Of a DNA stretch of 64,000 nt, positions 25,803 through 29,724 are shown piece by piece. The stretch is taken from positions 1-64,000 of the forward strand of contig DASUUK010000004.1 in the NCBI GenBank assembly GCA_036374135.1, given 5' to 3'. The notes under the pieces were generated by a model. The model was not told where the DNA came from and made no database searches. It saw nothing but the letters and a program-made list of their open reading frames with translations. This stretch comes from Euzebyales bacterium. Lineage in GTDB: Bacteria > Actinomycetota > Nitriliruptoria > Euzebyales > JAHELV01. A program made the position numbers and the translations under genes. Position 1 is the stretch's first letter. Each line of letters opens with the position of its first letter.

Positions 25803-27794
25803 ATGGCAGCAGTAGGCACGACCGTGCGCCCGCCCCGACGCCGGCGCCGTGAGAAGCCGACCTGGGAGCTCGTCTACAAGCGCAACTCCATCGAGCGGCT
25901 CAAGCAGGAGAAGTTCCCGCTCGACATCGTCGACGAGCTTCCGCAGCTGATCGCGATGGGGTACGAGGCCGTCCCTGAGGAGGACATCGTCCGCCTCAAC
26001 TGGTGGGGTCTCACGCACGACAAGCCCAAGCTGGGCACGTTCATGGTGCGCATCAAGGTGTCCGGTGGGCTGATCCAGCCCGCGCAGCTGCGGGGCGTCG
26101 GCGAGATCGCCCAGCGGTACGGGCGCAACTACGGCGAGCTGACCACCCGCCAGGGCATCCAGCTGCACTGGGCGCGGCTCGACCAGTTGCCGGAGGTGAT
26201 CGCGGCCGTCCAGGCGACGGGCCTGACGACGGTCGGGGGAGAGGGCGACACCGTCCGCAACATCACCGGCTGCCCGGTCGCGGGGATCGCCAACGACGAG
26301 CCATTCGACGTCACGCCGATCATCGCCGACGTCGCCGACTACTTCTACGGCAACCGCGAGTACTCCAACCTCCCGCGCAAGCACAAGTACACGATCGCCG
26401 CGTGCCCGGGGCAGTGCAACGCGCCCGAGATCAGCGACGTGGCGCTGATCGGCGTGGTCAAGGACGGTCGCGAGGGCTTCACCCTCAGCGTCGGCGGCGG
26501 GCTGTCGAACATCCCGCGCCTGGCCAGGGACCTCGGTGTGTTCGTGCCGCGGGACGAGGTCATCGAGGTGCTGCGGGCGGTCACCGACGCGTGGCAGTCA
26601 GACCCGAAGTACCGCATCAGCCGCGCCAAGGCGCGCATCAAGTTCATGATGGACGACCACGGCCCGGAGGGCGTGCGCGCCAAGGTCGAACAGCGGTTGG
26701 GGCGTCAGCTCGAGGACCACCCGGCGCCGGATCCCGTCGACGGGGTGGACCACCTGGGCGTGCACGCCCAGCGTCAGGACGGACGGGTGTACGTCGGGTT
26801 CTCGGTTCCCATGGGTTGGCTGTCCGGGGATCAGATGATCGGCATCGCCGACCTGGTCGAGCCGTTCGGCGGCGACGTGCGCCTGACCCGTCAGCAGGAC
26901 CTGATCGTCGGCAACGTGCCCACCGACCAGCTCGACGGCTTCCTCGCCGCCATGGAGCGACTGGGGCTGCCGATCACGCGGAACAAGGTGTACGGCAACT
27001 CGATCGCGTGCACGAGTCATAAGTTCTGCAACTACTCGGTCGCCGAGACCAAGGGCAAGTTGTCCGAGATCCTCGAGGTGCTCGAGGGCCGCTTCGGCGC
27101 CGCCGTCGAGGACCTGAAGCTGTACGTCGATGGCTGCCCGCACGCGTGCGCCCACCACTGGATCGGTGACATCGGCCTGCAGGGCACGACGACCAAGGAT
27201 CCGTCGACCGATCAACGCATCGAGGCGTACGACGTCACGCTGCGTGGCGGCCTGGGGCGCGCCGCAGCGATCGGCACGCCCCTGCTGCGACGCGTGCCGA
27301 CGACCGACATCACGGACGTGCTCGTCCGCCTGCTCGACGCGTGGCTGGAGCGGAAGGCCGCGCTGAACGGGTCGGGTGACGCGCTCGGGTTCCGCGCCTT
27401 CTGTGACGCCACGTCCGACGACGAGCTGCGCGCGATCGCCTCGGGACAGGCCGTGTCCGGACCGACCGCCGCGCACGGTGACGCCGACCATGTCGTCGTC
27501 CGCGTGCCGGGAACGCTGCTGGAGCTCTCCGACGGTGCGGACGAGATCTCGCTTCCGGCCGCGGCAGGTACGGACGGCACGGACGCGACCGTTTCCACTG
27601 TTGGCGAGGCGCTCGATCACCTGGTGCGTCTGCACCCGAGGTTGATCGCCTATCTTGTCAGCGGTCCGGGGCAGATCAACCCGGCGGTCAACCTGTACAT
27701 CGGCGAAGACGACATCCGTGGACTCGGTGGGTTCGACGCGCCGCTGCAACCCGGTGACGAGTTGTCGATCCTGCCGGCCCTCGCGGGCGGCTAG
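25803..27794 (+). CDS. Ferredoxin-type sulfite/nitrite reductase fused to a CysO/MoaD-like sulfur carrier
   Basis: 663 aa. Residues 1 to about 545 are a sirohaem/[4Fe-4S] sulfite or nitrite reductase with two half-domains and the cluster ligands CTSHKFC (C-x5-C) and GCPHAC (C-x3-C). Residues 564-663 are a ubiquitin-fold sulfur carrier: VVVRVPGTLLELSDG, an NLYIGEDDIRGLGG strand, and the terminal ILPALAGG, matching the CysO/MoaD ending whose last Gly is thiocarboxylated. APS reductase follows 16 bases later, which favours sulfite over nitrite as substrate. The fusion would place a sulfide-producing centre and a sulfide acceptor on one chain. The start has no strong ribosome-binding site. Confidence 0.9.
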   Translation: MAAVGTTVRPPRRRRREKPTWELVYKRNSIERLKQEKFPLDIVDELPQLIAMGYEAVPEEDIVRLNWWGLTHDKPKLGTFMVRIKVSGGLIQPAQLRGVGEIAQRYGRNYGELTTRQGIQLHWARLDQLPEVIAAVQATGLTTVGGEGDTVRNITGCPVAGIANDEPFDVTPIIADVADYFYGNREYSNLPRKHKYTIAACPGQCNAPEISDVALIGVVKDGREGFTLSVGGGLSNIPRLARDLGVFVPRDEVIEVLRAVTDAWQSDPKYRISRAKARIKFMMDDHGPEGVRAKVEQRLGRQLEDHPAPDPVDGVDHLGVHAQRQDGRVYVGFSVPMGWLSGDQMIGIADLVEPFGGDVRLTRQQDLIVGNVPTDQLDGFLAAMERLGLPITRNKVYGNSIACTSHKFCNYSVAETKGKLSEILEVLEGRFGAAVEDLKLYVDGCPHACAHHWIGDIGLQGTTTKDPSTDQRIEAYDVTLRGGLGRAAAIGTPLLRRVPTTDITDVLVRLLDAWLERKAALNGSGDALGFRAFCDATSDDELRAIASGQAVSGPTAAHGDADHVVVRVPGTLLELSDGADEISLPAAAGTDGTDATVSTVGEALDHLVRLHPRLIAYLVSGPGQINPAVNLYIGEDDIRGLGGFDAPLQPGDELSILPALAGG

Positions 27795-27810: not shown

Positions 27811-28608
27811 GTGCTGAAGGAACGCGTGGTCTTCGACGACCTCGAGATCGGTCAGCTGGCGGTCGAGCTGGATGACGGCGAGCCCGAGGACGTCATCGAG
27901 TGGGCGCTGAACACCTTCGGTGAGAACGTCGCGGTCGTGACGGCGTTCCAGTCCGACGGCATGGCCATCCTCGACATGGCCTATCAGATGTTCCCGCAGG
28001 TGCGGGTGGTGACGGTCGACACGGGTCGGCTGCCACCCGAGACCGTTGCGTTCATCGATGACGTGCGCCGGCGGTACCCGCAGGCGCGGGTCGAGGTCCG
28101 CTGTCCCGATGTCGACGAGGTCGCGTCGATGGTGCGTCGCAACGGGCCGGATCTGTTCCGCGAGAGCGTCCAGAACCGCCTGATGTGCTGCCAGATCCGC
28201 AAGGTGCGTCCGCTGACGGAGGCGCTGGAGGGCCTGGACGCGTGGTTCACCGGCCTGCGGCGCGACCAGTGGGCGTCGCGCGCCGCGATCACGAAGGTCC
28301 AGCTCGACCACGATCACGACGGCATCGTGAAGATCAACCCGCTGGCCGACTGGACGGCGGAGGACGTCGACGACTACCTCGCCGACTTCGCGGTGCCCCG
28401 CCACCCGCTGTACGGCAAGGGGTACACCAGCATCGGGTGTGATCCGTGCACGCGACCGATCCGCGACGGCGAGGACGACCGCGCGGGCCGGTGGTGGTGG
28501 GAGTCCGACGCACCGAAGGAGTGCGGGATGCACTGCCCGATCGAGACGGGCGGGTTCGAGCACGAGGTGCACGCGATCCTCGGGGAGGCGCATGCCGACG
28601 GCCACTGA
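27811..28608 (+). CDS. cysH: Assimilatory adenylylsulfate (APS) reductase
   Basis: 265 aa, GTG start with GGGGAG upstream. PP-loop-type fold: AVVTAFQSDGMAILDMA, VVTVDTGRLPPET and FTGLRRDQ. The [4Fe-4S] ligands CC (LMCCQIRKVRPL) and CxxC (GCDPC) mark it as an APS rather than a PAPS reductase. The C-terminal KECGMHC carries the catalytic Cys. It reduces APS to sulfite using thioredoxin, supplying the fused sulfite reductase encoded 16 bases upstream. The 3' end overlaps the next gene by 17 bases. Confidence 0.93.
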   Translation: MLKERVVFDDLEIGQLAVELDDGEPEDVIEWALNTFGENVAVVTAFQSDGMAILDMAYQMFPQVRVVTVDTGRLPPETVAFIDDVRRRYPQARVEVRCPDVDEVASMVRRNGPDLFRESVQNRLMCCQIRKVRPLTEALEGLDAWFTGLRRDQWASRAAITKVQLDHDHDGIVKINPLADWTAEDVDDYLADFAVPRHPLYGKGYTSIGCDPCTRPIRDGEDDRAGRWWWESDAPKECGMHCPIETGGFEHEVHAILGEAHADGH

Positions 28609-29092
28609 CACCCTCGCGCAGGGACCGGACGCGACCGTCGAACTCGACGACGCCGAGCAGGAACTGGTCGCCGCTGAGCTCGCGGCACTGCTGCCCGCCC
28701 TCTCGGAGGAGCGCCGCGCCGGGTACGAGGCGTTGGCGGACGCCGTCGACGAGGGCAGTGTGCCGCCCGAGCTCGTCGTGCACCTGCAGTCGCTGCTGGA
28801 GCTCGCGCTGCAGACGGCACGCGCACGCAAGCTGTACCGCGCGGAGGGCGAGAAGATCCTCACGGGCGTGTTCCGCCGGACGCCCGCTGGACGGGCGCTG
28901 ACCCGCCAGCTCGGTGACATCAACAGCGCCCTGCGGGCCGTGGCTGACCACGAGCTGCGCAGCGCCCGTGTGGGGATGCGCACGCTCGGCCACTTCACCG
29001 TGACGCTGCGGACCGACGAGGCGACGCTGACCCTCGCGGTGCGCCCCGACGGCATGAACGTCGAGAGCGTCGAGGTGCTGGACACGGCGTGA
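28592..29092 (+). CDS. Hypothetical protein overlapping cysH
   Basis: 166 aa, starting inside the end of cysH at an ATG behind GGGGAGG. The N-terminal half is acidic and helical (EQELVAAELAALLPALSEERRAGYEALADAV). The middle is basic (TARARKLYRAEGEKILTGVFRRTPAG). The C-terminus reads as a small beta sheet (VGMRTLGHFTVTLRTDEATLTLAVRPDG). No cofactor motif or membrane helix is seen. The overlap implies coupling to APS reductase and a role in sulfur assimilation, but I recognise no family. Confidence 0.7.
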   Translation: MPTATDTLAQGPDATVELDDAEQELVAAELAALLPALSEERRAGYEALADAVDEGSVPPELVVHLQSLLELALQTARARKLYRAEGEKILTGVFRRTPAGRALTRQLGDINSALRAVADHELRSARVGMRTLGHFTVTLRTDEATLTLAVRPDGMNVESVEVLDTA

Positions 29093-29235
29093 CCCGCTGA
29101 GCGTTGCAGCCGGGGCCGGATGCCGGTGTCCGGTGCCACGGTGGTGGGTGTCTGGCGGGTGGGGCGGTGTCCGGTGCCACGTTGGGACCGGCGGCGGTGC
29201 CGAACCGTCGGCCGTCGCGTACGGTCCGGGGCGAC

Positions 29236-29724
29236 ATGGCGCACGAGCTCGACCGGTGGAAGCCGGCATTGATCAACGGCGGCAGCGGGCTGGCGGTGAT
29301 CGCGCTGGGCTGGATGGTCGAGGGCCGGCTGACGTGGCCGATCATGGGGGCCGCCGTCGTCGCGCTCGGGTGGGGCTGGTGGGTCTCGCCGTTGCGCAAC
29401 GCGCGGCCCCATGTGCCGCACGCCGACGCGGCTGCCACGGCCGGACCGTACGGACCGGTCGTCTACTGGCGCCCGGGCTGCTCGTACTGCCTGAAGCTGT
29501 GGCGTGCGCTCGACCGTGACGAGCGCGACCGCGTGACATGGGTCAACGTGATGGCTGACCGCGACGCGTCCGTCTACGTCCGGCGCTTCCATGACGGCCG
29601 GATGGTCACGCCCACGGCCGTCATGGGCACGGGGCGGCAGATCGAGGCAACGGCGTCACAGATCCGCGCCCGCGTCGCACGTCGCCGTGGCCGACCTTCC
29701 GCCGACCCCGGCCGAGATCGCTAG
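29236..29724 (+). CDS. Membrane-anchored glutaredoxin/mycoredoxin-like protein
   Basis: 162 aa from the ATG at 29236. Two N-terminal transmembrane helices (about 15-32 and 37-55) precede a cytoplasmic thioredoxin fold at 77-150. The redox motif is VYWRPGCSYCLKL (C-x2-C) and the cis-Pro loop is VTPTAVMG. The tail is basic. Mycothiol-dependent mycoredoxins of actinobacteria share this domain. Its position after the sulfate-assimilation genes fits a thiol-redox role. A longer in-frame start is possible. A TACGGT box lies ten bases ahead. Confidence 0.8.
   Translation: MAHELDRWKPALINGGSGLAVIALGWMVEGRLTWPIMGAAVVALGWGWWVSPLRNARPHVPHADAAATAGPYGPVVYWRPGCSYCLKLWRALDRDERDRVTWVNVMADRDASVYVRRFHDGRMVTPTAVMGTGRQIEATASQIRARVARRRGRPSADPGRDR

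Follow-up and report, generated by a model that had tools for sequence, protein, structure and literature searches.

A sulfite reductase fused to a CysO-type sulfur carrier domain in the sulfate assimilation loci of Euzebyales and bacteria of other phyla

Introduction

What purpose could be served by a sulfite reductase that bears a sulfur carrier at its own C-terminus? The question is raised by one gene in a stretch of 64,000 nucleotides (the window) from a Euzebyales bacterium (assembly GCA_036374135.1, contig DASUUK010000004.1, positions 1 to 64,000). An initial annotation, made from the sequence, had proposed that a sirohaem reductase and a ubiquitin-fold carrier ending in Gly-Gly are joined there in one chain, and had regarded the fusion as new. 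The architecture is not new: Iyer, Burroughs and Aravind reported in 2006 that sulfite reductase of the actinobacteria Nocardioides and Acidothermus bears a C-terminal ThiS-like domain (PMC1779556, Table 1, row 4e), and proposed that sulfur derived from sulfite or sulfate ends on the carrier (PMC1779556). No experimental follow-up of that fusion was found in the literature searched, outside which most subscription papers lie.

What is new here is, on the one hand, a single clade of fused reductases extending over five phyla, with the gene order fused reductase, CysH and a third, uncharacterised protein (DUFx) at nearly all loci. On the other hand, the carrier is an extra, dedicated one, usually standing beside a separate CysO-CysM-E1-JAB module; some fusions have two residues after the Gly-Gly, and one runs on into CysH. 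In the following, genomes and loci are labelled G and L, G000 being the window's own assembly.

The fusion gene and its two domains

The features of the locus are collected in Table 1. The reading frame contains no internal stop codon, and the motifs CTSHKFC and GCPHAC, the ThiS domain and the terminal ...ILPALAGG* all belong to a single open reading frame, as the initial annotation had read it. The orthologous fusions of the congeners have the same start, MAA(A/V)GT. A sequencing artefact or a missed stop between the domains is ruled out, because the same in-frame junction is present in congeners (86-89% identity) and in unrelated, independent assemblies (57-74%); it is also present in the cultured isolate Pyrinomonas methylaliphatogenes K22. 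The fusion of sulfite reductase and carrier is genuine and conserved in several phyla.

Table 1. Features of the fusion locus (positions in the window)
Feature	Position	Strand	Description
SiR-Ubl fusion gene	25803..27794	+	single ORF, 663 aa, ATG start, TAG stop
Sirohaem/[4Fe-4S] sulfite reductase domain, residues 1-549	25803..27449	+	Pfam NIR_SIR, NIR_SIR_ferr; Foldseek
Lys193-His-Lys195 active-site motif	26379..26387	+	Lys195 is the sulfite-type residue; invariant in 32 sequences
[4Fe-4S]/sirohaem cysteines C403, C409, C445, C449	27009..27149	+	invariant in 32 aligned sequences
Flexible linker, residues about 550-561	27450..27485	+	pLDDT < 50 at 550-560; length and sequence vary
CysO-type beta-grasp (ThiS/MoaD-like) carrier domain, residues 562-663	27486..27791	+	Pfam ThiS, CysO matches, Foldseek
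Terminal Gly662-Gly663	27786..27791	+	in every complete fusion examined
cysH, APS/PAPS reductase	27811..28608	+	GTG start 16 nt after fusion stop; Pfam PAPS_reduct 2e-44
DUFx, 167-aa protein	28589..29092	+	uncharacterised; start overlaps cysH stop by 20 nt

In the fusion protein, Pfam recognises NIR_SIR (3.2e-48), NIR_SIR_ferr (3.7e-36) and, at residues 594-663, ThiS (PF02597; 30.3 bits, the curated cut-off being 22.5). The AlphaFold model, built with 32 aligned sequences, has a mean pLDDT of 87.7 and consists of a confident reductase, a disordered linker (550-560) and a beta-grasp domain whose last four residues are flexible. In this structure prediction, a check named in the initial annotation, Foldseek matches the parts separately, the reductase with NirA/SirA of M. 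tuberculosis (1zj8; E 1.7e-48, TM 0.89 by target) and the carrier with CysO (3dwm; TM 0.88 by target, rmsd 1.6).

The reductase is of the NirA/SirA type, with two NIR_SIR repeats and the cluster ligands C-x5-C...C-x3-C, and R83, R152, K193 and K195 are invariant among the 32 aligned sequences. Lys195 aligns with Asn226 of tobacco NiR, a position at which 1zj8 and the engineered mutant N226K (3vlx) likewise have a lysine. Cys161 of the Tyr-Cys crosslink of NirA/SirA aligns with Glu147 of the fusion. Sulfite reduction is the expected activity because of Lys195, of the adjoining cysH and of the fact that the fusion is the sole sirohaem reductase found in the window's genome; on these grounds the assignment made in the initial annotation is retained.

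Operon and neighbouring genes

The cysH product scores 263 bits with the NCBIfam model PRK02090 and 231 bits with APS_reductase (TIGR02055), just below the cut-off of the latter. Where a fused locus has sufficient flanking sequence, the fusion gene is in nearly every case followed by cysH and by a protein of about 150-170 aa, and often then by cysC and sirohaem synthase. Searches of Pfam and NCBIfam gave no family for DUFx; its AF2 model (pLDDT 90.8) has five helices followed by four strands, and a PDB search returned no match to this fold at E<=0.001. DUFx occurs in 6 of 198 actinobacterial genomes, all of which have this reductase clade, fused or unfused, and it shares an open frame with CysC at three loci (L080, L083, L096). 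This pattern makes DUFx a candidate for a new accessory of sulfate assimilation.

Within 8 kb of the fused loci none of JAB, E1, CysM and O-acetylhomoserine (OAH) sulfhydrylase (MetY) was found; SirA was sought by a single query. Neither a riboswitch search nor a promoter scan of the region returned anything. Downstream of the operon lies a gene for a weakly glutaredoxin-like protein (29104-29724, + strand), and a similar gene follows in one congener; no such gene was seen near the fusions of other taxa.

Distribution and descent

The search for further fusions, which the initial annotation had called for, was fruitful: a single scan of the species collected in GTDB yielded 29 loci, most of them with the full fusion. 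Its motifs derive from this clade, so that fusions of independent origin elsewhere may have escaped it. The taxa are Nitriliruptorales (the neighbours of the window) and other Actinomycetota, Ardenticatenaceae and other Chloroflexota, Pyrinomonas (including K22) and other Acidobacteriota, Armatimonadota and Tectomicrobia. In evenly drawn samples the fusion is rare. It is present in 9 of 396 actinobacterial genomes, 7 of these being from the window's own class, and in 3 of 297 genomes in the sample of Acidobacteriota. Among 27 further actinobacterial sulfite reductase loci the carrier domain was found at one only, L225, which is a member of the same clade.

In a tree of 45 reductases all 27 fused proteins, from five phyla, form one clade (100/99) with the unfused relatives outside it, and the actinobacterial fusions are scattered at several places. 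The simplest reading of this tree is therefore that one fusion event was followed by transfer between phyla. Several independent fusions were considered as well and none was seen in the sample.

The carrier domain, its tail and selection

When the C-terminal 113 aa are taken in isolation, their best matches are structures of CysO type (4n6e_B, 4.3e-9; M. tuberculosis CysO 3dwg_C, 3.3e-8), and SAMP1 and MoaD rank much lower. The domain has what is expected of the ThiS/MoaD/CysO group, namely a beta-grasp domain recognised by the family profile and a C-terminal Gly-Gly that is exposed or can be exposed. It is called here CysO-type and not CysO, because in the carrier tree the fused carriers and the standalone CysO proteins are two separate branches (100/99); moreover, CysM and Mec, with which CysO proper is encoded, are in the window's genome partners of a separate CysO (G000:C74). 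The fused carriers also lack the stretches 'P[TA].LR' and 'RF[IV]N' conserved in CysO, and in view of this and of their separate branch recognition by CysM cannot be assumed.

In comparisons of congeners the reductase has a dN/dS of about 0.10-0.15, the carrier one of 0.07-0.13 and the linker one of about 0.4-1.0; in the pair G009/G016 the values are 0.20, 0.17-0.30 and 1.1, respectively. The linker figures are rough as they come from 12-16 codons. In these pairs of close relatives no amino acid differs among the last 12 residues despite synonymous changes, and Gly-Gly is retained in 25 of the 25 fusions of a broad alignment. The Gly-Gly of the carrier is thus under strong selection, and the linker drifts and is not conserved.

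Most fusions end in Gly-Gly. Six of them (L080, L088, L090, L091, L092 and L096) have two further residues, the endings being GGGA, GGAR, GGAV, GGAF, GGGC and GGAC. At an Anaerolineae locus (L084, 7965-10748) reductase, carrier and CysH are joined in one frame of 927 aa, with 20-odd residues between the internal Gly-Gly and CysH, according to one metagenome assembly. Both kinds of tail imply that a protease would be needed to expose the Gly-Gly. In MoaX, cleavage after Gly82 is required for activity (PMC4326299).

Partner genes and a second carrier

A Mec(JAB)-CysO-CysM operon stands apart from the fusion in the window's genome (G000:C74:4876-6702), and its CysM has that of M. tuberculosis as its best match by far (2.5e-91 against 1e-69 for the next). 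The possibility that the fusion is the cell's only CysO is ruled out by this operon, which is complete, and the fused domain is thus a second carrier. Fused genomes as a rule keep such a module, which makes the fused carrier an additional, dedicated one beside CysO.

An E1 above the cut-off is found in 20 of 22 fused genomes (the exceptions being G000 and G041, the latter with only a fragment at a contig edge), Prok-JAB in 21 of 22 (not in G434), and CysM-type genes adjoining CysO, E1 or JAB in 14. The initial annotation had proposed looking for MoeZ and CysM homologues, and the outcome is mixed: CysM is present in the window's genome and each of three congeners has one MoeZ, with rhodanese, but no E1 (MoeZ/MoeB/ThiF homologue) was found in the window's assembly, which is 96% complete, even at E 0.1. 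Since all three congeners have MoeZ, its absence from G000 is probably an assembly gap. The co-occurrence of partners is permissive and not diagnostic, because E1, JAB and CysM are also found in unfused relatives. A single mycobacterial MoeZ is known to charge CysO as well as MoaD proteins (PMC3227635), and sharing of an E1 between carriers is therefore plausible by analogy.

Other associations of carriers with enzymes were observed in the course of the analysis. A TtuB-like ThiS domain ending in ISGG is N-terminal to a TtuA-like tRNA 2-thiolation enzyme in the window's own genome (L048, 4606-5766, G000:C12), a second carrier-enzyme fusion in one ORF with an internal Gly-Gly. CysO-like domains are N-terminal to E1-like enzymes, in one frame and with an internal Gly-Gly, at L162 (8538-10007), L164 (6133-7686) and L167 (1896-3410), the hosts being Pyrinomonas, an Anaerolineae genome and a Bacillota genome with an unfused sulfite reductase. 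Finally, in G066 a CysO gene (L235, 71-346) precedes an unfused NirA-type reductase by about 1.2 kb.

Proposed function and alternatives

The two domains, their conservation, the operon and the co-existing partner genes are matters of observation. The reading that we prefer, with a probability of roughly 0.55, is that the fusion is a bifunctional enzyme of assimilatory sulfate reduction, in which an E1 charges the tethered carrier with sulfide that the same chain has produced, and the charged carrier supplies cysteine synthesis of the CysM type. First, CysH would reduce APS to sulfite, which the sirohaem domain would reduce to sulfide. A MoeZ/MoeB-type E1 encoded elsewhere would then adenylate the Gly-Gly of the tethered carrier, a JAB protease (Mec-type) having first exposed it in proteins with two extra residues or a run-on tail. 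The adenylate would be converted to a thiocarboxylate by sulfide from the same chain or by the persulfide of the MoeZ rhodanese, and a CysM-type synthase would use the thiocarboxylate so that cysteine is made on the tail, from which JAB would release it. The tether would provide each reductase with its own carrier in a 1:1 ratio, keep free sulfide low and couple sulfite reduction to cysteine synthesis. The steps from adenylation to cysteine, as well as the benefit of the tether, are modelled by analogy on the chemistry of CysO and HcyS; it is from there that we infer the charging of the tail, the capture of sulfide in cis and the identity of the acceptor.

In favour of the bifunctional enzyme, the active elements of both domains are intact and conserved, and the carrier is kept in all 27 members of the clade. 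Against it, the need for a second carrier is unexplained given the full CysO module, and E1, JAB and CysM are encoded outside the operon, with no E1 found in the window's own assembly. A bolder version can be advanced only tentatively: the carrier would load itself, sulfide being caught in cis by the adenylated tail and never set free, the charged reductase would itself be the substrate of a cysteine or homocysteine synthase, JAB would free both tail and product, and DUFx would be a dedicated accessory.

Among the alternatives, methionine as the product is possible, if doubtful. The Wolinella carrier HcyS is synthesised with one additional Ala, and its bisulfide comes from sulfite reductase. 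A protein-thiocarboxylate pathway making methionine in Wolinella succinogenes (Krishnamoorthy and Begley, 2011) is cited in PMC5764234 and PMC6225789, and according to the latter such thiocarboxylates supply the sulfur for cysteine in M. tuberculosis and for methionine in Wolinella. By analogy, the tethered carrier would give its thiocarboxylate sulfur to MetY (O-acetylhomoserine sulfhydrylase) for homocysteine and methionine, and the standalone CysO would serve cysteine, which would account for two coexisting carriers. The tails with two residues after Gly-Gly resemble the Wolinella carrier, the fusion was placed in 2006 with operons holding OAH sulfhydrylase (PMC1779556), and PF01053 enzymes are above the cut-off in 18 of 20 fused genomes. 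However, G430 and G435 have no such enzyme above the cut-off and do have CysO-CysM, a pattern that mildly favours cysteine as the product, both assemblies being possibly incomplete; MetY was not seen within 8 kb of the fused loci, and of the solved structures, HcyS not being among those compared, CysO is the one nearest to the carrier. Use of the carrier by MetY is considered less likely than use by CysM.

A direct hand-off is unlikely. The tail would take sulfur at or near the sirohaem before its release, in the manner of the swinging arm of DsrC, and no sulfide would diffuse freely. The linker is short, the tail flexible and the single-chain arrangement constant throughout the clade, and DsrC bound to dissimilatory sulfite reductase (title of entry 2v4j) is a precedent; but neither the length nor the sequence of the linker is conserved, and adenylation must occur on a separate E1, so that the tail has to travel.

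That the domain serves as a tag for regulation or degradation, or as a SAMP-like modifier, and not as a sulfur carrier, is highly improbable: the sulfate assimilation context found everywhere and CysO as the nearest solved relatives weigh against the organism's proteasome/Pup-type genes and a weak match to the NCBIfam SAMP1 model (1.1e-9, below its cut-off). Still less credit is given to a nitrite reductase with an incidental tie to sulfur carriers, an identity rejected on account of Lys195 in place of Asn226 and of the gene context (CysH, CysC and sirohaem synthase as neighbours, no other sirohaem reductase found in the genome), although the top NCBIfam score is for ferredoxin-nitrite reductase (354 bits, far under the cut-off of 594). 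Finally, a passenger or relic without function, which the complete separate CysO module might suggest, is hardly credible in view of the purifying selection, the invariant Gly-Gly and the retention of the domain over five phyla.

If the tail of the bifunctional enzyme is charged with sulfide from the same chain, the fusion would provide a direct example of a toxic gas being channelled between enzyme and carrier, and it would answer the prediction of 2006 on the destination of sulfite-derived sulfur in organisms with these fusions. With two carriers per genome, it may also be asked how a single E1 and a single JAB protease discriminate between them. The idea is testable, since a cultured host exists (P. 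methylaliphatogenes K22).

Comparison with known systems

NirA/SirA of M. tuberculosis (1zj8) shares the reductase fold and the lysine at the sulfite-type position; identity is about 32%, and that enzyme bears no carrier. The CysO-CysM-Mec-MoeZ pathway of the same organism is similar in the fold of the carrier, its Gly-Gly tail and the same partner genes in most fused genomes, whereas here the carrier is tethered to the reductase and belongs to a branch of its own, apart from CysO. MoaX, the MoaD-MoaE fusion of M. tuberculosis, is also a carrier fused to another enzyme, and the internal Gly-Gly of L084 parallels it; in MoaX, however, the carrier is N-terminal to the enzyme that consumes the sulfur, and here it is C-terminal to the source.

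The HcyS/HcyF/HcyD/Sir/MetY system of Wolinella likewise has a sulfite reductase, a Gly-Gly carrier and a JAB protease in sulfate assimilation, and some of the present fusions share with it the residues after Gly-Gly; the Wolinella proteins are encoded by separate genes and the product is methionine. The fusion of Iyer et al. agrees, by its description, in architecture, in the sulfate assimilation context with PAPS/APS reductase and in the proposed role. The neighbourhoods reported in 2006 included JAB, an E1 without rhodanese, SirA and OAH sulfhydrylase, whereas here no JAB, E1 or OAH sulfhydrylase was found within 8 kb of the loci, such genes, where found, lying elsewhere in the genome, the E1 of the congeners is of the MoeZ type with rhodanese, and the fusion also occurs in four other phyla.
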